Positions 18,669 to 52,957 of a stretch of 64,000 nucleotides of DNA are shown piece after piece. The notes under the pieces are model-generated. The model did no database searches. It was not told the origin of the DNA and was given only the letters and a program-made list of their open reading frames with translations. The position numbers and the translations under genes were made by a program. Source of the stretch: Maribellus sediminis (GTDB lineage Bacteria; Bacteroidota; Bacteroidia; Bacteroidales; Prolixibacteraceae); contig NZ_WXUB01000001.1 in NCBI RefSeq assembly GCF_011799805.1, positions 372,001-436,000 of the forward strand, read 5' to 3'. Position 1 is the stretch's first letter, and each line of letters begins with the position of its first letter.

Positions 18669-19601
18669 ATCAAAAAGATTACTGTATTAGGAGTATTAGT
18701 CTTACTAATAGCAGTTAACTGTAGGGCGCAACAAGAACCCATTTTAACCTCATACATGTATAATAGCCAGGTGATAAATCCGGCTTATGCAGGTATTTGG
18801 GAGAAAATAGGTTTCACCGCATTAGTGAGAAAACAATGGGCAGGAATTAACCGTTCCCCGCTCACGGAATCGTTTTCATTTCACACGCCCCTCAAGAACG
18901 AAGCTGCTGGTATGGGCCTGAATGTCATGAACGACAAATTCGGGCTTGAAAATCGTTTGAGTGTACTCGGCGATTATGCCTACGAAGTTTACGTTTCACG
19001 CAGAACACGCCTCCGAATGGGCGTTAAATTCGGATTTGTAAACTACAAAAATCCGCTTACCGAATACAAATTATATCCTGATAATAAATACGATCACGCC
19101 TTTGATGAAGATGTAGATTTGAAGTTCCTGCCCAATTTTGGTGTGGGATTTTTTCTTTATCACGAGTATTTCTATGCCGGCTTCTCAGTCCCTAAAATTG
19201 TGGAAAACGACCTGAAAGAGAATTTCCATAACTATTCAACCAGCGCCGAAGTAAGGACTGTTTATTTGAATGGTGGCGTAGTTTTGCCTGTCGATCCCCT
19301 GAATTACCTGGTGTTTAAGCCTACCGTTCTCGTTCGTGCAACATGGGGGACCCCGCTACAGGCCGATTTATCAGCAAACTTGATGATACGCGAAAAACTT
19401 TGGTTGGGAGTGATGTATCGCACCGGTTCAGCAATTTGTTTTACGGGTAACTGGATGTTCAGCAACAACATTCGGGTAGGTTTCGCTATGGACGTGACCT
19501 ATAACGAAATATATCCTTACCAGAATGGAACTTTTGAATTTACGATCGGTTACGATGTCGACTTTTTTGGACGAAGTTATTTGAGATCAAGATATTTCTA
19601 A
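18669..19601 (+). CDS. PorP/SprF-family outer-membrane protein of the type IX secretion system
   Basis: A barrel protein of the PorP/SprF family, partner of large type IX-secreted surface proteins with type B sorting domains. The diagnostic N-terminus AQQEPILTSYMYNSQVINPAYAG is encoded in two parts around 18726-18794, followed by strand-rich sequence to the end (RSRYF). The first ATG (18756) lies inside the conserved region and would remove the signal peptide. In frame upstream, KKITVLGVLVLLIAV encodes a proper signal peptide, but no ATG, GTG, TTG or CTG opens it; the ATC at 18669 sits exactly where MKK would be expected. The start given is therefore inferred (ATC, or ATA at 18657). It precedes the giant surface-protein gene. 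Confidence 0.85.
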   Translation: MKKITVLGVLVLLIAVNCRAQQEPILTSYMYNSQVINPAYAGIWEKIGFTALVRKQWAGINRSPLTESFSFHTPLKNEAAGMGLNVMNDKFGLENRLSVLGDYAYEVYVSRRTRLRMGVKFGFVNYKNPLTEYKLYPDNKYDHAFDEDVDLKFLPNFGVGFFLYHEYFYAGFSVPKIVENDLKENFHNYSTSAEVRTVYLNGGVVLPVDPLNYLVFKPTVLVRATWGTPLQADLSANLMIREKLWLGVMYRTGSAICFTGNWMFSNNIRVGFAMDVTYNEIYPYQNGTFEFTIGYDVDFFGRSYLRSRYF

Positions 19602-19612
19602 TACAACAGATT

Positions 19613-19708: not shown

Positions 19709-22700
19709 GTGACTAAACAACCACATAACCAGATTTTTAAAACAGCAGTATTTATACTGGCTGTTATTGCTGTGCTTATGGGCAATCTTTCCGTATGTGG
19801 GAGTGTTGTATCACCAAATCATTCTATTCTACTTTCTTCAGAAAATCCGGAACAACAAGTCACTCAAAACGATACCACCGACCTGGTTTGTCCGGAAGAT
19901 CTTTCAACATACACCGACCTGAATTCTTGCGATGCCCTCATCACTTCAGGTCTTTCGATTTTAGATCCTGAAAATTCAATTAGCTCGTTAAACTGGCAAA
20001 TGACCGGTGCCACCCAGGATCAATCACCAACATCTGGTGTTAACCAACTCAGTTCATACGTATTCAACGAAGGCACTACCACCATCACTTACCGTGGCCG
20101 AACCCGTTACAACAATCCTGTTTTTTGCTCTTTTACGGTAACGGTGAGTGATAATGAAGTGCCTCGTTTGATTTATTCACCAGGAGATATCACTGTTTCG
20201 AATATACCCGGTGAATGCTTTGCAAAGGTAAGCTGGACCGAACTGATCGTTTCGGATAACTGTGTACCGAAGGAGAGCCTTATTGTTGATGGAAGTCGCA
20301 GATCAGGAGACAATTTTGTTGTCGGAGAAACCGAGGTGGTGTACCGGATTAGTGACGGTGTAAATGAAACGATGCATCGCTTTACGGTTCGGGTAGTGGA
20401 CCGTGAAGCTCCGGTATTGACAGCTCCTGAACCCATTGTAATTGTTTGTGGTGAAGAAGTGGAAGATGCTTTTACCGACTGGGATCATTTTGAACAGACC
20501 GGCGGAAAAGTGAGTGATAACTGCGCTGTTGATTATTCCAGCTTCCGCTATGTGCGCCAGACCAGTAGCGACATTCGTTGCCCTTACACCATTACCAGAA
20601 CTTACAGCATTGCCGATGTTAATGGTAATTTTACTGAAGTGAAACGTGTTATTCAGGTTACTGGTGAGGAGCCGGAAGAAATTCAGGAAGATAAATCAGA
20701 TCTTTTTTTAAAATCAGCCATGGCTGACTTTACGGCGCAACAATCAGGTAATTGGAACGATACTGCAACCTGGGGCGGTGCCATCCCAACCTCTGCGGAT
20801 GATGTAACTATTTCTTCTGGAATTACAGTGACTGTTGATTCAACAGCTTTTTGTAATTCCATTAGTTTGAATGGAACATTGAATTATGGCGTTGACTCCA
20901 CGCTATTTGTTTATGGGGACTGGACAAATGATGGCTCTTTTAATGCAGGGGGGGGATCAGTTGAATTTATTGGAAGTAATACTGCACTAATTTCTGGTGG
21001 CTCAACATCTATATTTTATAACCTTACTGTAAATAAAGGATCAAGTCGAGCAACTATACTAAATGTTGGTTCTACCGGAGGTGTGACTTGTACGCATTCA
21101 TTCACTATTTCAAATGGATTATTCCGTCCGATTTCCGGAACGGTTAATTTATCAATGTCTAGTGGATTCAATATTCCAGGATCTGCAGGAATAGAGATAG
21201 ATGGAGCTTCTGTTACAGGTAGTGATTACTCCATCACAAATAACGGGCTTTTTAAGATAATATCAGGCGATGTATCGTTAGGGGAGGCTACTGGTAATAG
21301 CTTACAAACTGCATCTGGAGGGACCTTTCAGATGGAAGGAGGTACATTGAGTGTTGCTGGAAGGCTATTTAACACAGCAGGAACAGCAAATATTATTGGT
21401 GGGACAATATATGTTTCAAAAAATGGACATAATAGTGGAACTTATGCAAGTTTCGACATGAGTATTTCAACTGTTCTTTCAATTACAGGAGGAACAATTA
21501 TTTTCGAGAAACCTAACAGCGGTTCTGCTGGGGACATTTGGATTCGTAGCGGTGGATCGAAAAACATTACCGGGGGTACATTCCAGATTGGAGGCACTTT
21601 GACCACGGCAGGTTCTACTTTTATTATTAATTCACCTTATTCGTTATACGATTTAAAAATTAATAGTAACAACAATCCATCGTTACAAATTGCTGGAAGC
21701 GATCTTGCCATAAGCCATTTATTAACCATGAATGGAGGAAACATTGATGCTACCTCTTATGACTTAATTTTGTCTAATTCTTCCACAGGCGCACTCTCAT
21801 ACAGTTCTGGTTATGTTTCGGGTAACTTGCAGAGAGCCATAGCAAGTTCAGGTAGTCCTATTTATTTGTTCCCGGTTGGAAATAGCAGCAATTATACTCC
21901 TTTGAGCCTTACTTTTAACAGTTTGAATTCGGGAGGAAATGTTACCATTGCTTCAATTAGCGGAGACGATTCAAATATTGGATCATCTTTTCTGAATTCA
22001 GGACAGAGTGTAAACAATTATTGGACCGTCAATAATAGTGGAGTAGCCTTTAATACAGTTAATGGAACCTTTAATTTCCCTCCCGGACTTGGAGATGGTG
22101 GAAGTTACATTGTGGGTTCGTATAATGGTTCATGGACTTATCCAACTGTCTCCTCTTCAAGTTCAACTAGTGTAAGCTTTTCCAGTGCAACATCACTGGG
22201 CTCGAGCTATGCTCTTGCTGAATGTACGCCACCTTCTGCCCCAACGGCAGGAAATGTATCTACAACCTACGATGGGAATAGCCACACAGGTACCGCAACC
22301 GCAGCTATTCCAGCTTCAGAAGTTATTGATTGGTATGATGCTTCAACAGGCGGCAATTCAACAACCGCACCATCAGGAACAAATGTCGGCACTTATTCGG
22401 CTTGGGCTGAAAGTAGGAATACACTTACAGGATGTGTAAGTGATACCCGTACTCTGGTAACTGTTGAAATTAATACAGCTTCATTGACAGTAACAGCTAC
22501 TGATGATTCTAAGACATATGATGGAGTTTCATACAGTGGAGGCAATGGAGTAAGTTACTCAGGATTTATTGCGGGAGAAGATGAAACAGTTCTTGGAGGA
22601 ACACTGACCTACAGTGGAACGAGCCAGGGGGCAGTGGATGTTGGTAGTTACGTGATCACGCCGGGAGGATTGACCAGTAGTAACTACAGCATCACTTTTG

Positions 22701-25700
22701 TCGGTGGTACCCTGACAGTAGGCCAAAGAGATTTAACAGTAACGGCAACTGCCTCAGACAAGGTTTATGATGGTAACACCACAGCGACAGTTACTTTAAG
22801 CAGTGATGCTTTGGGAGGCGACGATGTGACGATAAGTTATACGAGTGCGACCTTCGATACGAAAGATGTGGGAGCGGGAAAAACAGTTACCGTAAGTGGC
22901 ATAAGCATAGGTGGAACGGATGCGGGAAATTACAATCTGACCAATGCAAGCACGACTACTACAGCAGCAATTACGGGAATTCCATTGACAGTAACAGCTA
23001 CTGATGATTCTAAGACATATGATGGAGTTTCATACAGTGGAGGCAATGGAGTAAGTTACTCAGGATTTATTGCGGGAGAAGATGAAACAGTTCTTGGAGG
23101 AACACTGACCTACAGTGGAACGAGCCAGGGGGCAGTGGATGTTGGTAGTTACGTGATCACGCCGGGAGGATTGACCAGTAGTAACTACAGCATCACTTTT
23201 GTCGGTGGTAACTTGGAAATTACAGCAATTATAGTTACTCCAAGTATTACAGCTGAAAACAAGTGCTACGATGGTACAACATCTGTCACATTAAGTAGCC
23301 AAACCTTAACAGGTGTTTTATCAGTAGATGATGTTACCCTTGTAGTTGGTTCTGTATCTTTTGACAACTCTGGTGATGGAAGCGGAAAAACAATAACTGC
23401 CACTGGGCTTACATTAAGTGGTACAGATGCTACGAATTATACATTATCATCAACGACAGCAACAACAACGGCCGATATTTATCCATTACCCACAGCCACC
23501 ATCAGCGGCACCACCACCATCTGTGAAGGAGATGCAACTGATCTTACAATTACTTTAACCGGAACCCAGCCCTGGAGTATTACTTATACCGATGGAACTA
23601 CTCCTGTAACAGTAAACAATATTACCAGCAGTCCACACACAATTAGCGTTTCTCCTTCAGCAAACAGTACCTACACATTAACCGATGTTAGTGATGCCAA
23701 TTGTGACGGAACCGTTTCCGGTAGTGCTGCGATTGCCGTCAGACCCGCACCTACAGTTACAATCTCGGGAACTACTGCAGTCTGTCAGAATTCTTCTCCC
23801 ACGCCTCAGATCAACATTACAAATACGTCGGCACATGCGGTGAGGCTTACTTACAACATCAACGATACCGTTACAAACACGGTTGCATTGAATACCGGCG
23901 CATCCACATTTATTTCTCAGGCAACTACTTCAGCCGGTGTATTCAATTATCACTTTGAAAGTGTAGAATATCAGACTGCTCCCAATTGTGTTACAACACT
24001 GGATGATACGATCACCATTGCAATATACCCAACTCCTACAGTCAATCCAATTACCGACAAAACGTATTGTAACGATGATTATATAGTATCAGGTATTGCG
24101 TTTAGCGGGCCTGTACCCGGAACAACATTTGAATGGATGAACAGCAATACTTCCATCGGTCTCGGGGCTGGCGGAACAGGAAATATCCCGGAATTCAGGG
24201 CAACCAATGACACGGATGATCCGATCAGTGCAACCATTACGGTTACTCCTACAGCCAATGGTTGCGTTGGACCCGATGAGACATTTACCATAACGGTACG
24301 TCCAACTTTAAGAGCATCCATCAGTGGAAACGATACGGTTTGTCTGAACTCAGCATCACCCTTGATAACCTTTACTAACCCAATCGGCTTACCGGTTAAC
24401 GTATCCTACAACATAGGCAGTTCACCGCAGCCAGCTCTTACTATCCCGGCCCATGATTCTGTGCAGGTAGCAGTTCCGACCGGAACCGCGGGAACTTTTG
24501 TTTATGATCCTGTGAAGGTGGCTTACCTGGATGGTACTTGTGATGAGTCGTTCCCGGGAACTGCAACTGTAGTTGTCAATCCTGCCGCAGTTGCCATATC
24601 CACGCCATCGTCACAAAATATTTGTTCAGGCGATTCCATCATCCCCATTGTATTGACCAGTGCTACGCCGGATGTTACGTATAGCTGGGTGAGAAACAAT
24701 ACCTCGGTTACCGGTATTGCAGCCTCAGGAGTAGGAGACACGATCACAGGAGCCCTGACCAATACGAGCGGCTCAGCAATTACGGTAATTTTCAACATTA
24801 CACCGATTTATGATGGTTGCCCCGGTACGCCTTCAACCGCCAGGGTAACTGTTTACCCGGTTCCTGAGCTGGTATTAACTCCCGATTCACAAATGAGATG
24901 TTCTGGGGAACCGATCGGTTCCATCGCTCCTTCAACTACAAGCGGAGGAGGAGGAACCTTTACCTGGACAAGGGACCATCTCGATGATGTAATAGGTGTT
25001 GATGCTTCCGGTACGGGAGCAGTACCTTCCACCACTATAACAAATCTTACCAATGAACCGATAATTGTCAATTTTATCTTTACAACCACCTCTGTTAACG
25101 GATGCTACGTGGTTGCCGATACGGCTAAAATACTGGTGAATCCGACACCACAGATCATCGACACTTCAGAAACGATCTGCAACAGCGGAACCTTTAATGT
25201 GACTCCTGTTGACGGGCCTTACGGAGTCGTACCTTTAGGTACAACCTATAAATGGGCGATTCAGACAGTAGAGGCAGGAATTTCCGGGGCTTCAGCTAGT
25301 ACGGACGATGGTGTAACAAGTATTAGCGGTACACTTTCCAATTCTTCCAGTTCAGCACAATCAGTAATTTATGCGGTTACGCCTTATTACGGGGATTGCC
25401 CCAGAGGGGAGTTGTTCCTGCTGACCGTAACGGTAACGCCTGAACCGGACATCGACACCATGTACAAGAGTGTATGTAGCGAAGAATCGTTTAACGTAAC
25501 TCCGTTAAATAACACAGATGGTGTTGTTCCGGCCGGAACTACCTATGAGTGGGAAGTGTTATTTGAACCTGCCGGGGTAACAGGCGCAAATGGTGGCAGT
25601 GGATCGAATATTTCAGATACACTGGTGAATAGCAGCAATACCAACAAGGTTGTCAGCTACACGGTTTGGCCAACCGCAGGTGTTTGTGCAGGAGACTCAT

Positions 25701-28700
25701 TTATTTTGGAAGTTACTGTTAAACCTATACCTGTTATCATTAATTTGGATACGATTGCATGTAGCGAAGAAACGTTTACGGTTACACCGGTACACGGTAC
25801 GGATGGAGTGGTTCCGGCCGGGACTACCTATAGCTGGACAATACCTGATATGCCCGACGGTATGACGGGCGGATCTCCGGGAAGCGGGGCTTCTGTAATT
25901 AGCGGTACATTAACGAATTCGAGCGATACAGCACAAACTGCAATCTACACCGTTACGCCTACTGCCGGGGGGTGTCCCGGTTCACCATTCGAAGTGCAGG
26001 TTACCGTATATCCAAAACCGGCCATTAATCCGATAAGAGATACCATTTGCAGCGGCGGAGATTTTAACCTGATACCGGAAGACGGTGTCAACGGCTCTAT
26101 TCCTGCCGGAACAACCTATAGCTGGTCGGCACCGGTTGTTACAGGTATCGACGGAATATCAGCAGGAACAAATGAAACAAGCATTAGCGATACACTTATC
26201 AACAATAATACGACAGTAAGAACCGTGACTTACACGGTTACACCTACTTCGGGAGACTGTGACGGAGTACCATTTTCTGTGATTATTACTGTAAATCCGC
26301 AATTTACGGTCAGCAATATGTCAGCAACCGTTTGTAGTGATGAAGCTTTCTCTATTGTGCCTGTAAATGGTATTAACGGAACGGTACCTGCAGGTACAAC
26401 TTACAGTTGGTCGGCACCTACCACAGTATATGGAAGTACCGGAGGTGGAGACGGTAGCGGAACATCGATTACTGATACGCTTTTTAATCCGTCCATTCAT
26501 GTTGATACCGTTACTTATATCGTTTCTCCTACTTCAGGAAGTTGTTCAGGAAACGACTTCACACTAAAAGTTATTGTAAATCCTATTCCTGATGTTACGA
26601 TCGGCGGTGATGATTCTACTTGTTACGGAGCGCTGGCTCCCTATGTCACATTTACCAACAACGTGGATTTACCTGTTACGGCCACCTATAAAATTAACGG
26701 GGGTGCAGATTTTACGATCGATATTGGTGGCAATAGTTCGGATTCCGTAGCAGCTACCGTTAACCAGGAAGGTACTTTTATTTACAGTCTCGAAAGCGTA
26801 TCCTACCAGTCAACTCCTTATTGTTCTACTCCTTTAACTGACACCGCTACCATAGTAGTAAGACCGGTTACCACGGTGATTATTTCCAGATCTCCATCAG
26901 GGGCAGTTTGTGAAGGAACACCGGTGACATTTACATCTGCAGTGGCCAATGAAGGTACGGGAGCCACCTACCTGTGGTATGTGAACGGAGTTTCAACTGA
27001 TTCGACAGGAACAACCTATACTCCGACGGATCTAAGCAACAAAGACACAGTTCGCTTGGTGGTTACCACTACAAGTGGTACACCCTGTCCCGGACCCAAT
27101 TCAAGCAACCAGATCATTATGACGGTGAATCCGCTGAATATCCCGGATGTTACCATATATGAATCGTTGAATGACATTTGTGAAGGGACTTCGGTGACCT
27201 TCACAGCCGATCCGGTGATCAACGGTGGTACTAACCCAACTTTTGAATGGTTCTTAAATGATAATCCGGTTGGTGGGAACAGTCTGACCTATGTTACTGA
27301 TTCCTTAAACGATGGTGACCAGGTAAAAGTAGTGCTTACTGCGGATCCATCAGCATCCTGTCCGGGACCGCCGGATACGAGTAATGTCGTAGTGATGACG
27401 GTCAGTCTTTTGGATACTGTAAGTGTAAGTGTAAGTGTAACTGCGGATACTGTGTGCGTTGGAACACCTGTTACTTTAACTGCTACTCCTGTAAACGGTG
27501 GCAGTACTCCGGCTTATCAATGGAGAAAGAATGGAGTAAATGTTGGAACAAACAGTAGTACGTATACCTATACTCCGTTGAATAATGATCAGGTAAGCGT
27601 AATATTAACGTCGAACGCAACATGTACCGCCGGAAATCCAGCGTATTCTGATACTGTTACAATGACTATAGATCCGCTTCCCACAGCTAGTGCAGGAGGG
27701 GACACTACAATTTGTGTTGAAGAAGCTGTTACTTTGAGCGGAGCAACAGCCGGTAACGGAACTATTTTATGGACACATGATGGAAACGGTACACTGGTGG
27801 ATTCAACCACATTGACACCCACTTATACTTCAGCTGCTACAGACGAGGGAACTACAGTGACACTGACCCTGACAGTAGCTGGAGAAAATTCCTGTGGAAC
27901 AGATACTGCTACTGCAAGCTATACCATTAATATTGATCCGCTACCTGTAGCAATTGCAGGCGGAAACGATACGATCTGTTCGAATGCAACAGCAACTGTT
28001 AGCGGGGCTTCTGCCACAAACGGAAACATTGCATGGACTTATGCTGGTGCAGGATCGCTGATTAATCCGGGGACGTTAACTCCAACTTATATAGCGGATG
28101 CAGCGGATGCCGGGAACGATGTAATCCTGACCCTGGTCGTAAGCAGCAATAATGTTTGTGGGACAGCCAGCGATACAGCTTACTATACAATACATATTGA
28201 TTCACTACCCACAGCAAGTGCCGGAGGCGATACTACGATTTGTGTCAATGAAACTGCTACCGTTAGTGGAGCAACAGCTGCAAACGGAACCATTTTATGG
28301 ACAGAAAACGGAGCAGGTACAATTACTTCCGGAGCTGCAACACTAACACCAACATATACTCCGGCCGCAGGTGACGAAGGAAATGATGTTATTCTGACGA
28401 TGACCGTTACAAGTGATAATACTTGTGGAATAGCTAAAGCTACCGCTTTTTATACCGTTACGGTGAATCCATCAATTGATGCAAGTGTAAGTATTGTTGC
28501 TGATGCCACAGAAGTTTGTGATGGAGATGAAATAACATTTACTGCAACTCCTGTTAACGGAGGTGCTTCTCCAGGCTATAATTGGCTTATAAATGGTGCT
28601 TCCGCCGGAGCGGTGGATAGTTCGGTATTTAAAATTAATACTCTTGCTGATGGTGATATCATTTCCGTTGAAATGACTTCTGATGCGCTATGTGCGATAG

Positions 28701-31700
28701 GAGTTGATACGAGTAATGCGATACCGGTAATAATTGTAGACAGTGTGCCGGCAGCACCCGACTCTATAAGTGGTCTCAGTGGTATTTGTCCGCCTTTGCC
28801 AACGGTTTATTCCATTCCTGATAACGGAGCAGATTCTTATACTTGGTTTGTACCAGGTGGGTGGATCATCCAATCGGGTCAGGGAACAACTTTGCTTACG
28901 GTATCAGTGCCGGCAGTTGCAGTTTCAGGATATGTTAAGGTAGTTGCGAATAATGTTTGCGGATCCAGTGATACAACATTCCATTATGTAAATGTTGCGG
29001 CAGCTGCTTATGTTTATGCCGGTGACGATCAGGTGCTGTGCGAAGGAGCTACTTCAGTGGATCTTCACGGACAGGTTGGCGGTGCTGTTAGTACGAACAA
29101 GAAAGATTGGGAATGGGTAGCTGTCGCAGGTAATAATGGCGATTTTAAGCCGGATGATTTGAATACCACCTATGATTTTCCAGGTGGATTTACAACAGGG
29201 ATTCTTTATGTTGTGCTTACCACCGATATTGAGGTGGTAGGTGGTTGTAATGTCATAGCGGATACAATGATGATCACGGTATTGCCCAATCCAACGGTGG
29301 ATGCCGGAGGACCGGATACCGTTTGTCAGTCTTCAACACCTCTGGCGATAACCTTGTCGGGTGCAAGTGTTGGTGGCGGTGCCGACTCTGCTGCCTGGTC
29401 CATAACATCAGGTGGTGGTGCACTAAGTAGTACAGCGTATACACCAACACCTGATGCGATAACTTACATTCCTGCTGCAGATTTCAACGGAACCGTTACC
29501 TTAACCTTAACAACAAATGCTCTTGGCGATTGTACTCCGGTAAGTGCCAACAGAACCATAATCGTTAATCCTGTTGCAACGGTTAATGCCGGATTAAACG
29601 ATACCATTTGTGCCAATGGCGTAGTTACATTGTCTGGTTCTGTAGGAGGATCTGCAACTTCAGGAAACTGGTCGACCAACGGTGACGGTGATTTTGATGA
29701 TGCTACCGATTTATTTGCCACTTATACCCCCGGTTCCACCGATAGTATTAATGGTACAGTAACTCTGACGCTAAGTACTGATGATCCTATAGGACCATGC
29801 GATGCTGTATCTGATGATGTGCTTATAACGATCACCCCGGTGGCAACAGTTGAAGCCGGTGAGCCCGATACGCTTTGTCAGTCGGCAAGTCCGGTAGCCT
29901 TCTTATTATCCGGTGCAAGTGTCGGAGGAAGTGCTTTAACTGCAGCCTGGTCCAGTTCATCGGGTATCGGATTAAGTAGTACTGCACAAACCGCTACGCC
30001 GGGTAATGTAAGCTATACTCCCCAGGCTAATTTCTATGGAACTGATACTTTAACTTTAACCACAAATGCAACGGGGGAATGTCCGGCCGCAACCGATATC
30101 CGGTTAATAGTTATAGAACCGGCTCCTACGGTTGACGCCGGCGGTCCGGATACGATTTGTGAGGAAGAATTTCCTTCTGCCATTACTCTTGATGGAGCAA
30201 GTGTTGATGGCGGAGCAACAACAGGTACCTGGTCAATTACTTCGGGTGGAGGAAGTTTAGGATTTACCTCAGCAACGGAACAACCCGATACTGTAAGTTA
30301 TACACCTGCCGGCAATTATAGCGGTACGGTAATTTTGTCGCTAACCACAAATGCTCCGGCTACCTGTGATGCCGTTAGTGCCACAAGAACAATTGTTATT
30401 GAATCTGCACCAACGGTTGAAGCCGGTTTAGCGGATACAATTTGTGAAGATGGATCGGTGACGCTGGCCGGTTCGGTTGGGGGAGCTGCCACTTCAGGGA
30501 CATGGAGCGGAGGAGGAGGTTCATTCGATCCCGATGCTTCTGCACTGGATGCCATTTACACACCAAATGCAGCTGAAATAGCGGCCGGTTCAGTAACACT
30601 GACGCTTACCAGTAATGATCCTCCGGGACTGTGTGGAGCTGTTTCCGATACGGTTCGAATTACGATTAATCCACTTGTTGTGGTGGATGCCGGTCCTTAC
30701 GATACGATCTGCCAGGGTGATGCGGCGGCTTTGGCCGGTATTATTAGCGGAGGTGGAAGCAGCGGTTCATGGATTGGCGGCAATGGAACTTTCAGTGGAG
30801 GCAGAAATAACCTGAATGCTACTTATACGCCAACAACTGCCGAAGTAAATGCAGGCTCGGTTACTTTAATACTGCGATCTGATGATCCTGCAGGTCCTTG
30901 CGGACCATTAAGTGATACCACAAAAATCACCATTTATAAGGCTGTTGTGATAACCGCAGATCCAGAAAGCAAAGGGGTATGTGTGGGTGATTCAACTGCC
31001 TTGACGGTTGTGGCAAGTGGTAGTCAGTTGGCTTACCAATGGCACAAAAACGGAGTTCCTATCCCGGGCGCCGATACATCAATACTTCAGTTTAGCTCGG
31101 TAAGTTTAGCTGATGACGCCAGTTATTATGTGGTAGTAAGCGGTGCTTCAGAGTGCTCATCTGATACTTCAAATACGGTGACCATTAACGTTGATGCTCC
31201 TATTGCCATAAGCAATCAGCCCGATTCATTGATCCGCTGTGAAGGTACCAATGCGACCTTTAGTGTTACAGCTGATGCTGGAGGTTTGCCACTGAATTAC
31301 CAGTGGCGGCATAACGGAGCTGACATACCTGGTGCTACCTTATCTGCATATATGGTAGCGGGGGTCACTGCAGCTGATTCTGGTCGTTACGATGTGGTGA
31401 TCAGCTCAACAGCAGGATTTACCTGTGATTCCACAATCTCCGATATCGCAACATTGACTGTCAACGGGCCGGGAACAATGGAACGCTTAGGAACCGACTC
31501 ACTAACAATTTGTATGGATTCCACGATTTCAGCTATCAAATATATTATTGGCGGTTCAGCAACCGGTTATACGCTTTCAGGCTTCCTTCCTGCCGGAGTG
31601 ACGCCTTCCATGAGCGGAGATACCTTGACCATTTCAGGAGCGCCAACCGAATCAGGAACATTCGATTTTGCCGTTACAACAACCGGCAGTCCTTGCGCGG

Positions 31701-38585: not shown

Positions 38586-38612
38586 AATTTGACAGAGATA
38601 ACAACAACAAAA

Positions 38613-42144: not shown

Positions 42145-42858
42145 ATGACTAAAAAGTCTACACATATCATCCGTTGGGTACCGGGATTGCTCCTGGCACT
42201 GCTTACCATGACCAATGCTTTGGCTCAGGTAGGAGATAAACCTGTGCCTGTAATTCCGCCGGTGACGCAGTGTGATACGATCGTAGTACAGGTTGAAGAT
42301 TTTCCTGCTGACCGGTACACCTGGGATCTGTATAGCGATCCTGATGGTGATTTTGCTATCAACCAGGGCGATATGGAATCGGTTCTTTATTTTGAGAATG
42401 GTATGTACGAAGGCTTTAAAGTACGTATCATAGATCTCCCTACAGGAACGTACTTTTTAAGAGTTATGGCCTGGGACGAAATAGAATGTACCAATAACCT
42501 GATGGTGTTTAAGCTGGAGGTAGTTGAACCTCCACCGCCTATTGTTATTGGCGATTCGGTTTGTGTGGATGAAGTTGCTAAAGTTCATATAGTATTTACA
42601 GGTACCGGACCATGGCAGTTTACCTACACCTATGGCGATGGAGTTAACACTATAAATGGTATTGGAGAAAGTGAAATAGAAGATTATATGTTGGAAATCA
42701 CAGAACCTTTACCTGTTGGAGTAACCTCTTTCTGGATTATGGAAGTAATTGATGGCTGTGGAATTGCGCGTGAATTTACAGGAGATGAACGACCGGGAAC
42801 AGGAATCCTGATCTACCCGAAACCGGCGAAGCAACCGATTTATTTAAAGGAGGAATAG
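42145..42858 (+). CDS. Small secreted protein of the surface-structure locus, 237 residues
   Basis: An exported protein: basic start (MTKKSTHIIRW), hydrophobic segment and ALAQ cleavage-like site at about residue 28. Two beta-rich units follow (about 29-130 and 133-225); the first contains DRYTWDLYSDPDGDF and the second FTGTGPWQFTYTYGDGV, which resembles the GTxPW-x-x-TY core of Ig-like units in the 5889-residue protein. It ends GILIYPKPAKQPIYLKEE, again a strand plus a Pro-x-Pro turn. No type IX sorting domain is recognised. Probably an accessory or linker subunit for the neighbouring large proteins (inference). Confidence 0.75.
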   Translation: MTKKSTHIIRWVPGLLLALLTMTNALAQVGDKPVPVIPPVTQCDTIVVQVEDFPADRYTWDLYSDPDGDFAINQGDMESVLYFENGMYEGFKVRIIDLPTGTYFLRVMAWDEIECTNNLMVFKLEVVEPPPPIVIGDSVCVDEVAKVHIVFTGTGPWQFTYTYGDGVNTINGIGESEIEDYMLEITEPLPVGVTSFWIMEVIDGCGIAREFTGDERPGTGILIYPKPAKQPIYLKEE

Positions 42859-43269
42859 CGTATGGTGAACATAAGTTGTATTTTTAAACAAGGCAAAAGT
42901 GAAAAGGAACAAGTTGAGGAAGGTGAAACCGACTGAAATCCCGATCGAAGCATCGGGAGCAAAAGGATGGATGACGGAAGCCGGAAGAAGGCTGAAGAAG
43001 TGTTCAGTGTTCAGTTCAACACGAACCAGTGACTAATGACCGATGATTGGTGACAAAAGAATGATGAATGATTGCTATTGTAGTTATGAGAATAGATACA
43101 AGAAATAAAGATTGCTTCTCCCGAGTCTTCGGGATCGCAATGACAGGTTGTTGTGGGATCATTGCTCGCTTCGCTCGCGCGACCGCAGGGAGCTCTTTCT
43201 CTATACTGAACTGTCATTCCGAGGAGGTACAGCTTGTCCCGATTATTCGGGAACGAAGGAATCTTTTAT

Positions 43270-43390
43270 TGACTGGTTGACACTTTTACAATTTAGCAAT
43301 GAAACAGTTTTGCAATTTATATGAAAGACATACATTAAATAAAAGATAAACAAGCTCGCGGCTCGTGGCTCGCAGCTTCAAGCTGGATTA
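43270..43390 (+). repeat. Leader module, upstream copy
   Basis: Shares AACAGTTTTGCAATTTATAT, GAAAGACATACATTAA and an AGCTCGCGGCTCGTGGCTCG tract with 43690-43772 in the same order. This copy is followed by a repeat element, not by a gene. Confidence 0.75.
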
Positions 43391-43654
43391 ACGAATGATG
43401 ATTAACGATTTAAGATTTAAGATTGAAAAGGCACAGGCGAAGGCTGAGGCGAAGACAGCCCTGAAGGGGCGACAAGTAATAGCGCAGGGCAACGCCCTGT
43501 GGTAGAAAGCCCACCGTCATCCCGCGCTCCACGTTCCGGCGTTGAGTAAAGACCGATGGCAGCATGGAGCAAGAATTAGAAAGATTAGAGAAAGAATAAC
43601 GAATATTGATTAACGACTGCAAAATGAAGAAGGCAAAGCCAAAGGCGAAGAAGA

Positions 43655-43780
43655 AAGTGATCAGTGTTCAGTCGCAGTTAACAGTTTGACAATAGAACAG
43701 TTTTACAATTTATATGAAAGACAAACATTAAGTAGAATAAAAAGAAGCTCACAGCTCGTAACTCGCGGCTCAAACAAAAT
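43655..43780 (+). repeat. Leader module directly before the 3058-residue gene
   Basis: Order: TTCAGTCGCAGTTAACAGTT, ACAATAGAACAGTTTTACAA, GAAAGACAAACATTAAG, then AGCTC-like units ending a few bases before the ATG at 43781. The same order is found upstream of lipB on the other strand. Confidence 0.75.
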
Positions 43781-46700
43781 ATGAAAAAATTGATGTACAT
43801 AGTATTCTTCCTGCTGATGGCGGCAAATCTGCTCGCCCAGGAGACCTATGTCATCGATTCAGTATGTGTGGGAGCCGAACGTACCTATCGCAGGGATGGC
43901 GGAGCCGGTTATACCTACGATTGGGAAATTATAGATTTACAAGGAGGAGATACCATTTATGTTACGGGCAATGATTTTATTGAAGTAAATGGCTCGGATA
44001 CGACCTGGGGTAACGAAATTGAATACCTCTGGGATGCTGAAGGAGAATTTGATATTGTAGTTCAGGTTTTCAGTGAACACCGCTGTGATACGATTGAACA
44101 GGGCATTGTGAAGGTATTTGAGGAACCTTTTGTTGATGCCGGGCCTGACAGCATCCTCTGCGATGAAATAATAGAAATGACACTTGCGGGAGATACTGCC
44201 TGGAATTACAGCGCGCTCTACTGGGAAACACTTGGCGATGGAACCTTCACAGGAGATGCAGGATTGCATCCGACCTACCGGTTTGGAGCCACGGATATTG
44301 CAAACGGAGAGGTATCCCTGGTTTTAAAAGCTGACGGTTTTGCCTTAAACAATACCTGTGAACCGGCTTACGACACCGTAACCTATTACTTTAGCACACC
44401 TGAACTGACTTCCGACTGGCATGACCCGTACTGTTACAACGACAGCTCCGGTTGGATAAAAGTGAGTGTCAGCGGTGGCTTGCAACCGTTTGATTACTAC
44501 TGGGAAGGTCCACCGGGGTTTGTTAGCTCGAATACCGACAGTATTGGCGGCCTGTGGGCCGGAACCTATTATGTAACGGTAACCGACCGCAACTTCTGTA
44601 CCGATATCGATACGATCGTGCTTTTCAATCCTCCGGAATTGCTGCTTTCAATTGACAGTGTCAGAGATGTGAGCTGTTACGGCTATTCCGATGGATTTAT
44701 TTGGGCCTCAGCCACAGGAGGAACCGGCGAACTTTCATTTAACTGGGAAGGACCTGACGGATATGTAGCTGGCGAAGATTCGATAAGTGATCTTAGGGCC
44801 GGAATTTATGTACTTACCGTTTGGGATGAATACGGCTGTACGCTGATTGATACCGTAACAGTTGAAGAACCGGATCCATTGATTGCCGTGATCGACAGCT
44901 TTATGAATGTGCAGTGTTACGGTTTCAACAATGGCTATGCCCATGTTGAAGTGACCGCCGGAACAGGGCCGTATACTTACTCGTGGAACAGCGATCCTGC
45001 GCAGGATTCAACCTGGGCGACCGACCTCGGCCCGGGATGGTATACCGCCACCATTACCGACCTGAACGGTTGTATGGCCTGGGATTCGGTTTACATTGAT
45101 GAACCGGAACTGCTTGTGGTAACAGGCGACAGCATCGATGCACGTTGTGACGGCGGTAAGCCCGGCGAAATTCACCTCCAGGTTAGCGGTGGAAACCGAC
45201 TGGCCAATGCACCTTTCTATTATTTTGAATGGTATAACGAAGCCGACAGCTTAATTGCTACCACTCAGGATATTTACGGGCTTGCCGGTGACCAGTATTA
45301 TACGGTTTATGTTTCCGATTCATTGGGATGTAACGATTCACTGAGCATTTATGTAAACGAAATCCCGATGATGGAGATGGTTTACAAAGTGGATACAGCG
45401 CGTTGTTACGGAGATTTGTGGAATGTCGCCATTGACGTGAGTCTCGGAAGGCCTCCATATATTTATGAATGGATCGACACTGCAGGAACAGTATTCGCGA
45501 CAACAGATTCAGTGACGGTTCCGGCCGGATTTTATACAGTGAATGTGATCGATCAGGATTCCTGTGTGCTGACCGAACTGTTCAACCTGGTTGAACCTCC
45601 GTTGGTTAAAGTGGACATTTCGGGCGATTCCATTTTGTGTTATGGCGACGAACTGATGCTGCACGGTAATCCACAGGGAGGAACGGGCGTCCTTGCTCAA
45701 AGCTGGACCGGTAACGGTTCCTATTATCTGAATTTTACGGATAGAGCTAATGTAAACTTTGCCTATCAACCACCCGCTGGTGCTTATGACTTTATATACA
45801 CCATAGTTGATGAAGTGGGTTGTGATGCTACCGATACCTTCCTGGTTAATATCTATCCGCCAAGTTATTTCAACGATACTTTGGAGGTTTGTGCTTTCTC
45901 AGAACCATTCCAGTACAATGAACATATAACGATTACCAGTGATGCCGACCGTATATACCGGGATACCATTTTCGGAGGAAGTCAATACGGCTGCGACTCG
46001 CTGATAACAGTGGACGTAAAAGTGCTCTTCCCCGAATATTACGATACCACAATATATGTTTGCGAGAACGTAGCACCCTACCAACCCTACGGAAACATTA
46101 CCATTTATCCCGACCGCGATAGTATTTACTTAGATACATTATCCTATGTGGGAACGGACTGTGACTCCTTGTTGATTACGATCAATGTCTTCACCAAGCC
46201 ACTCACTTACAGCGAACACGATTCAACGCTTTGTGCGGGTGCCGACGAATTCCAATGGAATAACCGCTGGATCCAAACGGATTCAAGCCAGGTATATCTT
46301 GATACTCTTTTGGGAGCGAATCAGTTTGAATGTGACTCGATACTGACCTATATTGTAACGATCAATCCGCCCGATACGACATATCTTTTTGACACGATTT
46401 GTGAGGGATCAGATCCTTATGTTTGGATTGAAACCAGTACAGATACAATAATCGTTCAAACAGCTTACGACAGCATTTATGAGGCTGCACTTCCCAATCA
46501 ATTTGGTTGCGATTCGATTGTGATACTGGATGTCCACCTGCTGCCAACAACAGATACCGTAATCGATACCATGCTGTGTTACAACGAGACTGATTTCTAT
46601 GCCTGGAACCACCGGGTTGTTTATATGCAGCACGATAGCACTTATCTTGATACGCTGGTCAATCAGTGGGGTTGTGACTCACTGCTGACACTTAATGTGA

Positions 46701-49700
46701 CGATCAGGTTCCCGGATACAACAAACATCGACACCACAATTTGTGAGGGCGAACCAATCTTTGCCTGGGGAGTAAATACCATCCACCAGGTGGATGCCTA
46801 TACCGACAGCATTTATACCGACGTTCTTCAGAATCAGTTTGGTTGCGACTCCATTGTAAATCTTGATGTGAGGATACTTCGACCTGCTTATTTCGCTGAT
46901 ACGATCGATATCTGCGAAAGCGAACCTGCTTATTCGTGGTACAGTCACACGATACTGACCGACCGCGACAGCATTTATTACGATACGCTTTATTATGCAC
47001 AAGGATGCGACTCGCTGCGTCTGCAGTTAGAGATTATTTCGCACCCGGTTTATGATATCCCATTCGATACAGTTCTTTGTGAAGGAAGCGATGGCTTTGT
47101 ATGGAACAGTTACACTATTAATACCTTCGTTGATAGCCTCTACACTGATTCGCTGACTACGGTTTGGGGTTGCGATTCGATAGTAAGTCTGGATGTTAAA
47201 ATAGTTCCGGCTTTCAAAGACACATTGCGTGAAGCTTTCTGTTTCGGAGAGCCAATAGCAGACTGGAACGGTCTGGTCATCTCCAATGAATCAGACGGCG
47301 TTTATCTTTATACTGTGCCCGGCCCCGGTGGTTGCGATACCCTGATCTTCTACGAAGTGACCATTAATCCGGTAACGGATACTGTTCTTGATACTGTGCT
47401 GTGTTATGGTTTGGATGACTTTATGTGGAATAACCGTTTGATCTCCGGCACTGTTGGTGGTTCTTATCTCGACACCCTGAAAAACAGCTATGGTTGCGAT
47501 TCCCTGTTAACCTATAACGTAACCATTCTGCCTCCGGATACAGTTCGCATGGATACCATCCTTTGTGTAGGCACTCCGGAATATGACTGGAACGGTAATA
47601 CCGTTTCAACCACTTTGGAAGATGTTTACGAAGCAACGTTGCAAACGGCTTTAGGCTGTGACTCAGTTGTAATTTTGACTGTGTCATTAATTGAAGGAAC
47701 AACCACATATGATACCCTTTATGCCTGCGGAGAATATACCTGGATGGAAGGAACCGGAGAGACCTATTATGTATCTGATGATTATCTGCATACTTTAAAT
47801 GCTGAAGCCGGATGTGCCGACAGTTTATGGCTGCACCTGGTGATCAGTAATCCGGTCATCATTGCTGATTCAGTAAATGTGCTTTGCTATGGCGACAGCA
47901 CCGGATCAATTGATATTACTGTTACAGGAGGGGTTGAGCCATACACTTATTTATGGAGTAACGGAGCTACCACTCAAGATATCAGTGGACTGCCGGCCGG
48001 AACTTATACCGTAACCGTTACTGATGCATTATCTGATACGCTTCCTTGTTTTGCAACACTTGATATTACCATTGAAGAGCCTAAAGAATTGCTTCTTACA
48101 CTGGATGCCGTAACAAATGTTGATGTTATGGGCGAATCGACGGGAAGCATTGAGGTTCTGGTTAGCGAAGGTACTCCGGATTATAGATTCCAGTGGACAA
48201 ACGAAGCCGGTACCGTGGTTGACTCGGTTCAGAACCTGTATAACCAGCCCGCAGGAGATTATACATTAACTGTTTGGGATGCATACGACTGTCCGGCTAC
48301 AATTTCCGCAACGATTACTGAACCTATTCCGCTGCAAAGATATATGGAGCCGGTTGATACTTCAATTTGTTATGAAGACCGCTACAATTTCCCTCTTCTG
48401 GATTCTCTGAAACAATATATTGCCTTACACCCTGACATTGATGTCTTCTCACTTGCGGGTCTCGATACCAGCACCTTTAGGCTTGATTCTGTAATAGTTG
48501 TAGGAAGCAGTTATTGTTACGAAGAAATACGTACCTACAGCATTATGGATTTTGATGGTGAAACCTTAAGCGCCACCCATCGGATTATTGTTGATGACCA
48601 GGAGGATCCGGTAATAAATTGTCCGGATGACTTCTCAGTTTCAGATGGAATTGTTCCTGATCATCTTGATTCTATCGGATTCCTGACTGCAGGTGGCTGG
48701 TTTAGTGATAACTGTGGCGTTGTACGTTTTGACTATGTCGGTCAGCAAAGTGATGGAAACTCTGATCCGGAGATAATATGGAGAACATATGAAGTTGAAG
48801 ATTATTGCGGCAATATAAGTCAGTGTATTCAGGAGATTACCGTTTACACCACTGCCGATCTTGCACTCAACTGCGACGATCTGCCGGATGTTTATTATGA
48901 TTGCAAAGATTTCAGACCAAACTATAGAAATATTGCAGACTTCGAAGCTGCCGGTGGTAAGTATTACAGTTCGGTGCCAATTGACACCTTCTTTTATAAT
49001 GATAATGTGAAAGGCAGTTTCTGTCCGACTATTACCCGGACTTATACACTACGTAATGTTGCAGGACTGGAAGAAAAATGTACTCAGATATTTGAAGTAC
49101 TCGATTCAGTGAAACCGACACTGATTCTTCCCGATAAACACATTTATTGTGATGAAACCTGGCCGACATATGCCACTTATTCCGAAGTAAACAGGTATCG
49201 GAACTCCCACGGAAATTTAGCTTCTGATAATTGTGGTAATGGATCGATAGATTATTTGACTTATGTAAGACAACGAGTGATAGGATCCTGTCCAACAGAG
49301 ATACAAAGAACCTATCGCTTATATGATAAATGTGGAAATTTCAGGGAAACTGTTGAAAGTATATTTGTTTACGATACGATCCCACCTGTAGTAAACAACT
49401 TCCCGGATGAAATTACTGCCGATTGTGATATTCCAACACCATACACTTTAGCCGATTTAGATGTATTTGATGATTGTGTTCCTGCTGTTCAGATATCTTA
49501 TCGCGATTCACTGGGTGATGTAAATGAATCGGGAGTCATGTACCGCATTTACACCTTCACCGATGGATGTAATCCTGTGGTGAAAGTTCAGAAGATTACT
49601 ATTATTTTAACAGAAGTTCCCGAGTTTGACGCCATCGGCCCGATCTGTCAGTTTAACGAAGCTCCGGCATTACCAACTACTGATATTAATGGAATAACGG

Positions 49701-52700
49701 GATACTGGTTGCCTGATAGTATTAATACCGCAATTGCCGGAACTTCCGATTATATTTTCTATCCCGATTCAGGCCAGTGTGCAGGACCATTTAGCCTTGC
49801 AGTTGAGATCCGTCCGGCTATTGATGTGTATGAAGTGTTGCATGTTGACCAGGCATATAATCCCGATTCGGTTGGAGAAATTCGGATTGGTGTACTGGAG
49901 GGAACTGCTCCATTCGATTATTTATGGAGTAACGGAGGAACAACAAATTACATTGATAATCTGCCTGCGGGAACCTATACGGTTTATGTAAACGATGCTA
50001 TCGGTTGTACAGATACTTTAACCATTGAAATTACTGCTGCAGAACCTGAACTGGCCTGTATCCCGGATACGACAATCGAATGTCCTGATCCGTTGCAATA
50101 TCCGCCGGCTTCCACTATTGCTGAATTTATTGCCTATGGTGGCTCCTATAAACCGGACAGTCTGGTAGCAAGAGTGAGCAGCTTTGAAATGGCAGGCGAT
50201 CGCGATTCATGTTTAAGCATCGATCGTTACTATGTGATTGAAAATATTTTCGGACGCAGTGACACCTGTGTGCAACATGTCGACTTCTATGATAATGTTC
50301 CACCTGTGATCATTGCTCCTGAAGGCGATACAGCTGAATGTTTGTCGACCGTAGTTCCGCGGATTGAAACATTTGCAGACTTCCTGGCGATGGATGGCGC
50401 AGATGCCTACGATCCGAATTGTGAGCTTGATCCTACCACATTCACGGTTCGTGATACAGCAATTCTCCTGGCACCTGGTCGCTCGCAAGTGATCTATTCC
50501 TACAGCATTGCCGATTTCTGCGGAAATATTGCACGCGATACCAGCTACTACATCAGTACCGATGACCAGGCACCGGAAGTATTCTGTGCCGATATTACGG
50601 TTTATCTGGATGAAAACGGCGAATATAAACTAAGTGTGCAGGATTCAATTGCTATGGTCGATAGCGTTTATGATAATTGCACTGCACCCGAAGACCTGGA
50701 AGTTCGTCTTTCATGGCGGGCAGTGACCTGTGAAGATGTGGAATCCGGACTTCAGGTTCGTATTGAAGTGTACGATGAAGCTGGTCTTTCTGATGCTTGT
50801 GTAGCTACTGTTACTGTGGTGGATACTGTACCTCCCGTAGCCCTTTGTAAACCGGATACCATTTATCTGGATGAAAATGGACAGGCAAGTATCACTGCCG
50901 ATATGATCAATGATGGTTCGTATGATAATTGTACGGATGTAACACTGGAGCTTGACCGGTATAATTTTGATTGTGTTGATTTAGGAGACAATACGGTTAC
51001 CTTAATCGTTACTGACGGATATGGATTAAAAGATAGTTGCCAGACTACGGTTACAGTATTGGATGCCATATCTCCTGAAATTAGCTGTATCGTTCGTGAT
51101 ACTGTTCGTTTGAGTGAAGAAGACGGTACTTATACTTTGACTTATGATATGGTAACTACTTCAGAGTGGGAGAATTGTGAAATTGTAAGCCGTGAACTGG
51201 ATAGATACGTACTGAATTGCGACGATATAGAGGCAAGCCCGGTTACCATAACGGCAATCGCAACCGACCAAAGTGGTAATATTGGTTACTGTACAGCGGA
51301 ATTTGTGGTATACGGAAATATTCCACCGGTAGCATTGCCAGATTACGATACCACCATTGTAGATGTGCCAATTTCGGTTTATGTAGTTGAGAACGACTAC
51401 GACATAGGACTGAAAACCGATATACGAAATAGCACGCTTACTATCCTGACTCAACCTGGAAGCAATATTGGAACGGCAGAAGCGGATACTGTTAGCGGAT
51501 TTATCAAGTTCACTCCGGCACCGGGATATGTTGGACGGGCTGTGATTCAATATAAAATTTGCGACGATGCTATTCCATGTAAGGAAGAATGTGCTGAAAC
51601 TTACCTGTACATAATGGTTCTTCCGGCTAATAAGCCACCGCTTGCAGTAGATGATTACTTCGATGTGCCATGTATTAGTCTGTCAGGAGATGTATCGTTT
51701 ACCGATTCCGATCCGGATGGCGATGAAATTGAGATCAATCCGGTTCCGCTTGTGTCGCCGGTTAACGGAACACTGGTGTTGTACAGTGATGGTCATTTCG
51801 AATACGAGCCATTTATCGACTTTACCGAAGGAGTTGACAGCTTCCAGTATGAAATTTGGGATAAACCTACATTTGGCGAAAGTCTGCGCGATACAGCCTG
51901 GGTATACATCACCCGTGTACCTGATAACGACTGTGACGGTGTAGCCGATGCAATTGATATCGACGATGACAACGACGGTATCCGTGATAACATTGAAAAC
52001 GGAGGCTTCTGGCCGGAAGATCCGGGTGCGGAACTGATCGACTCCGATAACGATGGAATACCGAATTACCTGGATATTGATTCGGACAATGATGGAATTG
52101 TGGACAATATCGAAGGTCAGTGGGAAAATGGTGACGGATGGGCAAATTGGAATGAACCTGTGGGATGGCGCGACCAGAATAACAACGGCTGGGATGCTCA
52201 TTACGACTGGGAAGAAGGTGCTGGTGGTATTCCGTTTGATATGGATTTGGCTGATACCGATGGAGACGGAGTTCCCGATTACCTTGATAGCGACTCGGAT
52301 AACGACAATGTTCCCGACTACATTGAAGGACATGATGACAATGCCGATGGTATTGCCGATGTGATACGTATTTACAGCGATGTAGACCGCGATGGTTTGG
52401 ATGATGCTTACGACTGGGTTGACGGTTGGGGAATACCTGACCTGATTGATAACGAAACAGGAAGCTCGGCTCCGCTTCAGGACTTCGATGGCGATGGTAC
52501 ACGCGACTGGCGTGATACCAACGACGAAGACGATGAGTACATGACCATCAACGAAGACATTAACGGTAACGGCGATTATAGTGATGATGACCTCGACCTC
52601 GACGGCCATCCGGAATACCTGGATACTGAACTTGAATGTGATCTCTTCATTCCTGAAGGATTCTCACCAAACGACGACGGTGTCCACGACTTCTTCCAGA

Positions 52701-52957
52701 TCCTGTGTATCTACCCGCGTTACCCGGATGCGAAACTGATGATCTTTAACCGAAACGGTAACCTGCTCTGGGAAAAAGAACACTACGGAAACTACGATTA
52801 CTGGGGATGGAACGATGCCTGGTGGTGGGGTACTTCCGATAATAAGCTCACTATTGGTAGGTCAGGAGGATTGCCGGCAGGTAACTACATTTACGTCCTC
52901 TTGTTGAACGACGGCCTTGGCGGCGTTCGTAATGGTACGGTTATGATCGCTTACTAA
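43781..52957 (+). CDS. SprB-like surface protein with type B type IX sorting domain, 3058 residues
   Basis: A very large secreted protein. Signal peptide: residues 1-20 (ending LLAQ). Domains in order: a PKD/Ig-like start; at least four SprB repeats (about 205-610; signatures such as CYGYSDGFI and AGTYYVTVTD); twelve tandem 55-residue repeats each with a GCDS-like core (about 695-1360); two more SprB repeats (to 1520); HYR-like units (to 2500) interrupted by another SprB unit near 2030; two cadherin-like Ig units (2510-2710); acidic thrombospondin type 3 calcium-binding repeats (DNDGI-type, 2715-2950); and a type B sorting domain (2955-3058) starting IPEGFSPNDDGVHDFF. The last domain sends proteins through the type IX system and often pairs with PorP/SprF barrels, which fits the PorP-like gene upstream. 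SprB itself is the mobile adhesin of gliding Flavobacteria; motility here is not shown. Confidence 0.93.
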   Translation: MKKLMYIVFFLLMAANLLAQETYVIDSVCVGAERTYRRDGGAGYTYDWEIIDLQGGDTIYVTGNDFIEVNGSDTTWGNEIEYLWDAEGEFDIVVQVFSEHRCDTIEQGIVKVFEEPFVDAGPDSILCDEIIEMTLAGDTAWNYSALYWETLGDGTFTGDAGLHPTYRFGATDIANGEVSLVLKADGFALNNTCEPAYDTVTYYFSTPELTSDWHDPYCYNDSSGWIKVSVSGGLQPFDYYWEGPPGFVSSNTDSIGGLWAGTYYVTVTDRNFCTDIDTIVLFNPPELLLSIDSVRDVSCYGYSDGFIWASATGGTGELSFNWEGPDGYVAGEDSISDLRAGIYVLTVWDEYGCTLIDTVTVEEPDPLIAVIDSFMNVQCYGFNNGYAHVEVTAGTGPYTYSWNSDPAQDSTWATDLGPGWYTATITDLNGCMAWDSVYIDEPELLVVTGDSIDARCDGGKPGEIHLQVSGGNRLANAPFYYFEWYNEADSLIATTQDIYGLAGDQYYTVYVSDSLGCNDSLSIYVNEIPMMEMVYKVDTARCYGDLWNVAIDVSLGRPPYIYEWIDTAGTVFATTDSVTVPAGFYTVNVIDQDSCVLTELFNLVEPPLVKVDISGDSILCYGDELMLHGNPQGGTGVLAQSWTGNGSYYLNFTDRANVNFAYQPPAGAYDFIYTIVDEVGCDATDTFLVNIYPPSYFNDTLEVCAFSEPFQYNEHITITSDADRIYRDTIFGGSQYGCDSLITVDVKVLFPEYYDTTIYVCENVAPYQPYGNITIYPDRDSIYLDTLSYVGTDCDSLLITINVFTKPLTYSEHDSTLCAGADEFQWNNRWIQTDSSQVYLDTLLGANQFECDSILTYIVTINPPDTTYLFDTICEGSDPYVWIETSTDTIIVQTAYDSIYEAALPNQFGCDSIVILDVHLLPTTDTVIDTMLCYNETDFYAWNHRVVYMQHDSTYLDTLVNQWGCDSLLTLNVTIRFPDTTNIDTTICEGEPIFAWGVNTIHQVDAYTDSIYTDVLQNQFGCDSIVNLDVRILRPAYFADTIDICESEPAYSWYSHTILTDRDSIYYDTLYYAQGCDSLRLQLEIISHPVYDIPFDTVLCEGSDGFVWNSYTINTFVDSLYTDSLTTVWGCDSIVSLDVKIVPAFKDTLREAFCFGEPIADWNGLVISNESDGVYLYTVPGPGGCDTLIFYEVTINPVTDTVLDTVLCYGLDDFMWNNRLISGTVGGSYLDTLKNSYGCDSLLTYNVTILPPDTVRMDTILCVGTPEYDWNGNTVSTTLEDVYEATLQTALGCDSVVILTVSLIEGTTTYDTLYACGEYTWMEGTGETYYVSDDYLHTLNAEAGCADSLWLHLVISNPVIIADSVNVLCYGDSTGSIDITVTGGVEPYTYLWSNGATTQDISGLPAGTYTVTVTDALSDTLPCFATLDITIEEPKELLLTLDAVTNVDVMGESTGSIEVLVSEGTPDYRFQWTNEAGTVVDSVQNLYNQPAGDYTLTVWDAYDCPATISATITEPIPLQRYMEPVDTSICYEDRYNFPLLDSLKQYIALHPDIDVFSLAGLDTSTFRLDSVIVVGSSYCYEEIRTYSIMDFDGETLSATHRIIVDDQEDPVINCPDDFSVSDGIVPDHLDSIGFLTAGGWFSDNCGVVRFDYVGQQSDGNSDPEIIWRTYEVEDYCGNISQCIQEITVYTTADLALNCDDLPDVYYDCKDFRPNYRNIADFEAAGGKYYSSVPIDTFFYNDNVKGSFCPTITRTYTLRNVAGLEEKCTQIFEVLDSVKPTLILPDKHIYCDETWPTYATYSEVNRYRNSHGNLASDNCGNGSIDYLTYVRQRVIGSCPTEIQRTYRLYDKCGNFRETVESIFVYDTIPPVVNNFPDEITADCDIPTPYTLADLDVFDDCVPAVQISYRDSLGDVNESGVMYRIYTFTDGCNPVVKVQKITIILTEVPEFDAIGPICQFNEAPALPTTDINGITGYWLPDSINTAIAGTSDYIFYPDSGQCAGPFSLAVEIRPAIDVYEVLHVDQAYNPDSVGEIRIGVLEGTAPFDYLWSNGGTTNYIDNLPAGTYTVYVNDAIGCTDTLTIEITAAEPELACIPDTTIECPDPLQYPPASTIAEFIAYGGSYKPDSLVARVSSFEMAGDRDSCLSIDRYYVIENIFGRSDTCVQHVDFYDNVPPVIIAPEGDTAECLSTVVPRIETFADFLAMDGADAYDPNCELDPTTFTVRDTAILLAPGRSQVIYSYSIADFCGNIARDTSYYISTDDQAPEVFCADITVYLDENGEYKLSVQDSIAMVDSVYDNCTAPEDLEVRLSWRAVTCEDVESGLQVRIEVYDEAGLSDACVATVTVVDTVPPVALCKPDTIYLDENGQASITADMINDGSYDNCTDVTLELDRYNFDCVDLGDNTVTLIVTDGYGLKDSCQTTVTVLDAISPEISCIVRDTVRLSEEDGTYTLTYDMVTTSEWENCEIVSRELDRYVLNCDDIEASPVTITAIATDQSGNIGYCTAEFVVYGNIPPVALPDYDTTIVDVPISVYVVENDYDIGLKTDIRNSTLTILTQPGSNIGTAEADTVSGFIKFTPAPGYVGRAVIQYKICDDAIPCKEECAETYLYIMVLPANKPPLAVDDYFDVPCISLSGDVSFTDSDPDGDEIEINPVPLVSPVNGTLVLYSDGHFEYEPFIDFTEGVDSFQYEIWDKPTFGESLRDTAWVYITRVPDNDCDGVADAIDIDDDNDGIRDNIENGGFWPEDPGAELIDSDNDGIPNYLDIDSDNDGIVDNIEGQWENGDGWANWNEPVGWRDQNNNGWDAHYDWEEGAGGIPFDMDLADTDGDGVPDYLDSDSDNDNVPDYIEGHDDNADGIADVIRIYSDVDRDGLDDAYDWVDGWGIPDLIDNETGSSAPLQDFDGDGTRDWRDTNDEDDEYMTINEDINGNGDYSDDDLDLDGHPEYLDTELECDLFIPEGFSPNDDGVHDFFQILCIYPRYPDAKLMIFNRNGNLLWEKEHYGNYDYWGWNDAWWWGTSDNKLTIGRSGGLPAGNYIYVLLLNDGLGGVRNGTVMIAY

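Follow-up and report, generated by a model that had tools for sequence, protein, structure and literature searches.

Conserved C-terminal proline tails on three secreted proteins of a five-gene locus in Maribellus sediminis, a candidate multi-subunit type IX adhesin

Three secreted proteins encoded at a five-gene locus of Maribellus sediminis end in short, conserved, proline-containing tails, and in none of the three is a known C-terminal sorting domain (type A, B or C) found with Pfam or NCBIfam. Judged by sequence, these tails are a feature newly described here. The locus is part of a window of 64,000 nucleotides (C5:372001–436000 of the 5.6-Mb genome) and also encodes one barrel of the PorP/SprF family and one SprB-repeat protein with a type B sorting domain. 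The five proteins may well make up a multi-subunit type IX adhesin: the barrel would hold one subunit, and the others would be carried or docked through their short tails. If so, the model of type B substrates and PorP barrels grows from pairs to complexes.

The genes are in a row on the + strand, and all five open reading frames given in a preliminary description of this DNA (18669–52957) are found there. The barrel gene (18669..19601), a putative shuttle or anchor, has an open frame of 317 amino acids. The match to the Pfam model PF11751 is 220 bits (cut-off 22.3), which places the product among PorP/SprF barrels; nine PF11751 matches are present in the whole genome, one of these within the window. 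A sequence search of the barrel against the PDB gave no credible match. The second gene (19709..37378, GTG start) encodes a giant of 5889 amino acids with PKD_5, YDG, MBG_2, Ig and HYR domains. Two small secreted proteins follow: small1 (39635..40855), 406 amino acids in beta-sandwich domains, whose start is placed 21 codons too early in the list of open reading frames, and small2 (42145..42858), 237 amino acids in two Ig-like domains. Both have signal peptides and neither has a family match in Pfam or NCBIfam. The last gene (43781..52957) encodes the SprB-repeat protein of 3058 amino acids, with SprB repeats (PF13573), Big_9 and a CHU_C type IX domain. This sorting domain (52649..52954) scores 55 bits with PF13585 (cut-off 27), which assigns the protein to the type B substrates; the NCBIfam type B model TIGR04131 gives 28 bits, below its cut-off of 35. 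The earlier proposal that only the last gene carries a type B sorting domain is in agreement with these searches.

The five-gene set is conserved across the Prolixibacteraceae. Of the named relatives, Maribellus, Draconibacterium and Mariniphaga are the nearest, and small2 of Maribellus sp. CM-23 is 78% identical. Gene order in relatives had been set beforehand as a test. The set recurs as a unit, and the order barrel, giant, small1, small2, SprB-like protein is kept in nine of nine genus members inspected (the window, G087, G083, G077, G096, G030, G063, G070 and G093). These have the set at one chromosomal site with the same flanks, a dipeptidase and a PLP enzyme, and in four of the nine a further giant precedes the barrel. 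Since the same set and order recur in relatives, the set is beyond chance, and its conservation argues for the multi-subunit reading. In G083 (L065–L067) both giants are split in two frames, by assembly error or decay.

Mariniphaga (G062) also has the barrel first, at another site. The barrel gene closes the row, immediately downstream of the sorting-domain gene, in Sunxiuqinia (G067) and Mangrovibacterium (G044), in G086, and in the named or MAG loci L152, L154, L157, L160, L162 and L163, and the barrel after the sorting-domain gene is the usual order in 40 loci sampled across the class. Barrel-last order is thus usual in the class sample, in sprCDBF and in the rest of the family, and from this distribution the barrel-first order is probably derived in the Draconibacterium/Maribellus/Mariniphaga group. 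The barrel order had been described as unlike that of sprCDBF; this is correct for the window, the genus and Mariniphaga, but not for other members of the family or for a second locus in the same genome (C7), where the barrel is last.

The Sunxiuqinia genes for small2, the SprB-like protein and the barrel are spaced by 3 and 18 bases, which speaks for the multi-subunit reading. The locus in the window is not a compact operon, because gaps of 2.26, 1.29 and 0.92 kb precede small1, small2 and the SprB-repeat gene, respectively (37379–39634, 40856–42144 and 42859–43780), and short dispersed repeats fill them. Terminators and promoters in the three gaps do not exceed the chance level. This 0.9–2.3 kb of repeat DNA between genes weighs against the multi-subunit reading. 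One repeat, GCTCGCRGCTCGTGGCTC, has 37 genome-wide matches at two or fewer mismatches; its reversed control has none.

At the C-termini, the companions of the barrel and the SprB-repeat protein do have features of their own: all three have conserved short tails that were missed in the preliminary description. The giant ends in IVTPRPKIEKLNFY (37334..37375). A P[RK]P motif is present at the C-terminus of 33 of 34 distinct homologous giants and in 10 of 112 interior linkers (Fisher p = 1e-22); as these giants are homologous to each other, 33/34 measures conservation rather than 34 independent origins, and this tempers the support for the multi-subunit reading. The small1 protein ends in VITPRPRI plus a disordered stretch (motif ITPRPRI, 40736..40756), and R371-P372 is invariant in 23 of 23 sequences, with a mean column identity of 31%. 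The small2 end is IYPKPAKQPIYLKEE, its tail YPKPAKQPIYLKEE is encoded at 42814..42855, and P227 and I232 are invariant in all 23 sequences. In the AlphaFold models of small1 (pLDDT 75) and small2 (pLDDT 81), the tail motif lies at the strand that closes the final beta-sandwich, the predicted small1 strand being at 362–368, and a short lower-confidence end follows. The giant and small1 tails have [IL]xPRPx[IV] in common, although the two proteins have no sequence relation. Related ends (VNPVPITSPIFHN, INPTPVTSPIYHN) occur on additional companions encoded at some MAG loci. Tails on three types of companion argue for the multi-subunit reading. The pattern PxPxTxxI[YF]HN-stop was considered as a phylum-wide signal and rejected; it has one match in 396 class genomes, about the chance level, and is found in 2 of 100 genomes of the family, the strict form being a minority variant.

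Perhaps the five genes encode separate surface proteins in a conserved neighbourhood, and the tails are plain ends of PKD/HYR-type domains with no function of their own. The giant tail resembles the linker after PKD-like domains inside giants, so that domain ends may explain part of the likeness, and interior linkers of the giant can look like its tail, e.g. VYPKPAINPIRD. Such linkers count against the multi-subunit reading and, with the large intergenic gaps, fit separate proteins. However, P[RK]P is far more frequent at giant ends than in interior linkers, the RP of small1 is invariant despite the low column identity, the set is strictly conserved, and small2 is found fused to a sorting domain in Mangrovibacterium. 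Separate proteins with plain domain ends are therefore considered improbable.

In Mangrovibacterium (L161), small2 is joined to a type B domain and lacks the proline tail; the barrel gene comes immediately after the fused gene. Because the tail is missing where a type B domain is present, it appears to take the place expected for an anchor or export element; the fusion also supports the multi-subunit reading. A candidate small2/SprB-like fusion in L152 was rejected, as two separate frames are present. The main rival to joint export or docking is that the tail and the last beta-sandwich domain together form an additional type IX export signal, and that the giant, small1 and small2 are exported singly and partner-free, perhaps through the same barrel. 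The tails do occupy the position of a sorting signal, the [IL]xPRPx[IV] motif is found in two proteins without sequence relation, and small2 does without a tail when fused to a type B domain. On the other hand, the known signals of types A, B and C are domains approximately 70–100 residues long, with several motifs; the tail has approximately 12 residues and the domains preceding it differ. In addition, there are two classes of tail, PRP and PxP(x4)I, and both would need to be read. Autonomous export through the tails is accordingly regarded as unlikely. A further, tentative proposal is that the tails represent a new type IX signal or docking code in which a C-terminal stub resembles a linker plus the start of the next Ig domain, and by which separate chains would be co-exported and joined into a composite filament on the single barrel.

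The small1 and small2 proteins are nearly confined to one family. Each is present in 39 of 100 sampled family genomes, and a small1 profile run against 296 class genomes gave, beyond the genome of the window, two weak partial matches in one genome. Small1 has no match in a sequence search of the PDB. Fold likenesses barely exceed background and were not used as evidence; small1 resembles pilins and the PorA N-domain (Z 8.8–9.2, rmsd 3.0–4.1, 129–142 aligned), and small2 resembles Ig pairs and GhpA.

The pairing of the barrel with the SprB-repeat protein is approached through pairwise identities. Among 30 barrels, identities between barrels correlate with those between their partner sorting domains at r = 0.95. 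When the genus is represented by a single member (22 pairs), r is 0.77 and none of 2000 permutations is as high, and for the pair in the window alone r = 0.90; the correlation also contains species relatedness, which reduces its weight for the multi-subunit reading. The relatives of the window barrel and of its sorting domain are ranked near-identically: genus members, G062 and the genome's own C9, followed by its own C1, G067 and L152. On the basis of these parallel similarity patterns (r = 0.90), the front barrel at 18669 is very probably cognate to the SprB-repeat protein encoded 24 kb downstream. The proposal of one barrel gene for the set thus gains support, the single barrel being matched to the member with the sorting domain, and the proposal also withstood the check, set beforehand, for giants paired elsewhere with a barrel of their own. 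Type B substrates require a cognate PorP/SprF barrel and stay bound to it (PMC12618676, PMC9143113). The matching found here fits these published pairs, and both the match and the barrel-bound state of published type B proteins argue for the multi-subunit reading.

According to the multi-subunit reading, Sec would take the giant, small1 and small2 into the periplasm, and the SprB-repeat protein would leave through SprA by means of its type B domain. The barrel encoded at 18669 would collect this protein and keep it bound as the anchor on the cell surface. Because the giant, small1 and small2 lack any known sorting domain, they would be carried out with the anchor subunit or docked on it outside, and the proline tails that end the last beta-sandwich domain may be the docking elements. 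A donor strand, with a tail completing the first domain of the next protein, is an option only, because the N-terminus of the SprB-like protein appears from its sequence to have its own strand already. A locus with a single barrel, a single sorting domain and three tailed partners, conserved in culturable genera, makes it testable how Sec-exported Bacteroidota surface proteins that lack a recognised sorting domain get to the surface.

A link to type IX secretion, as suggested before, is borne out by the genome: SprA is present at 2706 bits, and GldK, GldL, GldM and GldN are encoded on C7 near 355–361 kb, adjoining another barrel. These components favour the multi-subunit reading. Another rival reading is that the locus is the true counterpart of sprCDBF, a gliding-motility adhesin system whose structure is moved along the cell. 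SprB repeats, the barrel family, companions lacking sorting domains, GldKLMN and a GldJ-like protein would all suit such a role, but the GldJ score is below cut-off. The CxC motif in the periplasmic C-tail of SprF forms a disulfide link to GldK and is needed for gliding (PMC12635249). The barrel in the window ends in GRSYLRSRYF. CxC is absent from its C-tail and from those of 15 related barrels, and neither it nor any of the 15 has more than one Cys among its final 60 residues. A gliding role is unlikely because the barrel lacks the tail that joins SprF to GldK, and a true gliding counterpart is highly improbable.

The locus resembles sprC-sprD-sprB-sprF of Flavobacterium johnsoniae in having a PorP/SprF barrel and neighbour genes alongside a SprB-repeat protein with a type B domain, and the barrel-last order is found in other Prolixibacteraceae loci. 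The neighbour genes of sprB are reported to support SprB function (PMC5879114). It differs in its 5889-amino acid companion giant, in the barrel gene being first in the genus, in the barrel without CxC, and in small1 and small2, which are nearly limited to one family. The sprCDBF order (companions, SprB-type protein, barrel last) is absent from the window and is found in Sunxiuqinia, Mangrovibacterium, G086, L152 and C7 of the same genome. The end of F. johnsoniae sprD had no match in the named genomes in a primer-pattern scan. The locus appears to work like a SprB/SprF pair with companions, and is not classified as a gliding sprCDBF member because neither CxC nor the gene order was found. The type B/PorP-SprF pairs PG1035-PorP and Fjoh_3952-Fjoh_3951 belong to the same families and are likewise matched as pairs. 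Such genes are usually adjacent, with the sorting-domain gene directly upstream of the barrel (most of the 40 class loci), whereas here the barrel is upstream, 24 kb and three genes separate the partners, and no PorE-like gene was seen beside the barrel.

The second locus, at C7:521–530 kb (L011, L012), encodes proteins of 922, 260 and 272 amino acids, a 668-amino acid type B protein and a barrel. It also has three secreted proteins without sorting domains ahead of the type B protein and barrel, and proline-containing ends (SELPSTGEIIPD, INPIPNTSSIITD, ARPNTSGIGTN), but the proteins are different, the barrel is last as in sprCDBF, and there is no giant. The grappling-hook protein GhpA of Aureispira is, like the giant, a Bacteroidota giant multi-Ig-like surface protein; its Ig tandems align with the small2 Ig pair at Z 7.5–8.1 and rmsd 7–9 Å (∼155 aligned), the general level and background for Ig folds. 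C1 and the end of C9 (L010, L013) break at contig ends inside repetitive giants and have sequence common to both; they probably belong to a single locus that encodes two barrels and two type B proteins.

The start of the barrel gene reads ATC GTC ATC AAA AAG, and reading of the signal peptide begins at a non-AUG codon, at either 18663 or 18669. The start at 18669 given previously is plausible, though the codon is ATC rather than ATG. In 20 of 20 genus orthologues (L167–L186), ATG, GTG and TTG are absent from the start of the signal peptide and the element TATCGTCAT[TAC] is kept instead; the start codon is thus probably AUC or AU[UAC]. Non-AUG starts of this kind (AUC, AUU/AUA) are a class sensed by IF3 in E. 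coli. The first canonical codon in most orthologues is a TTG inside the signal peptide, and the window barrel does not have even that, while barrels of other loci (L194–L196) have an ATG start. The signal peptide would be lost by gene callers. After the locus, the window encodes a TonB-plug-like protein of 806 amino acids (53145–55565), and among the relatives inspected a related gene is present at the same site only in G093.
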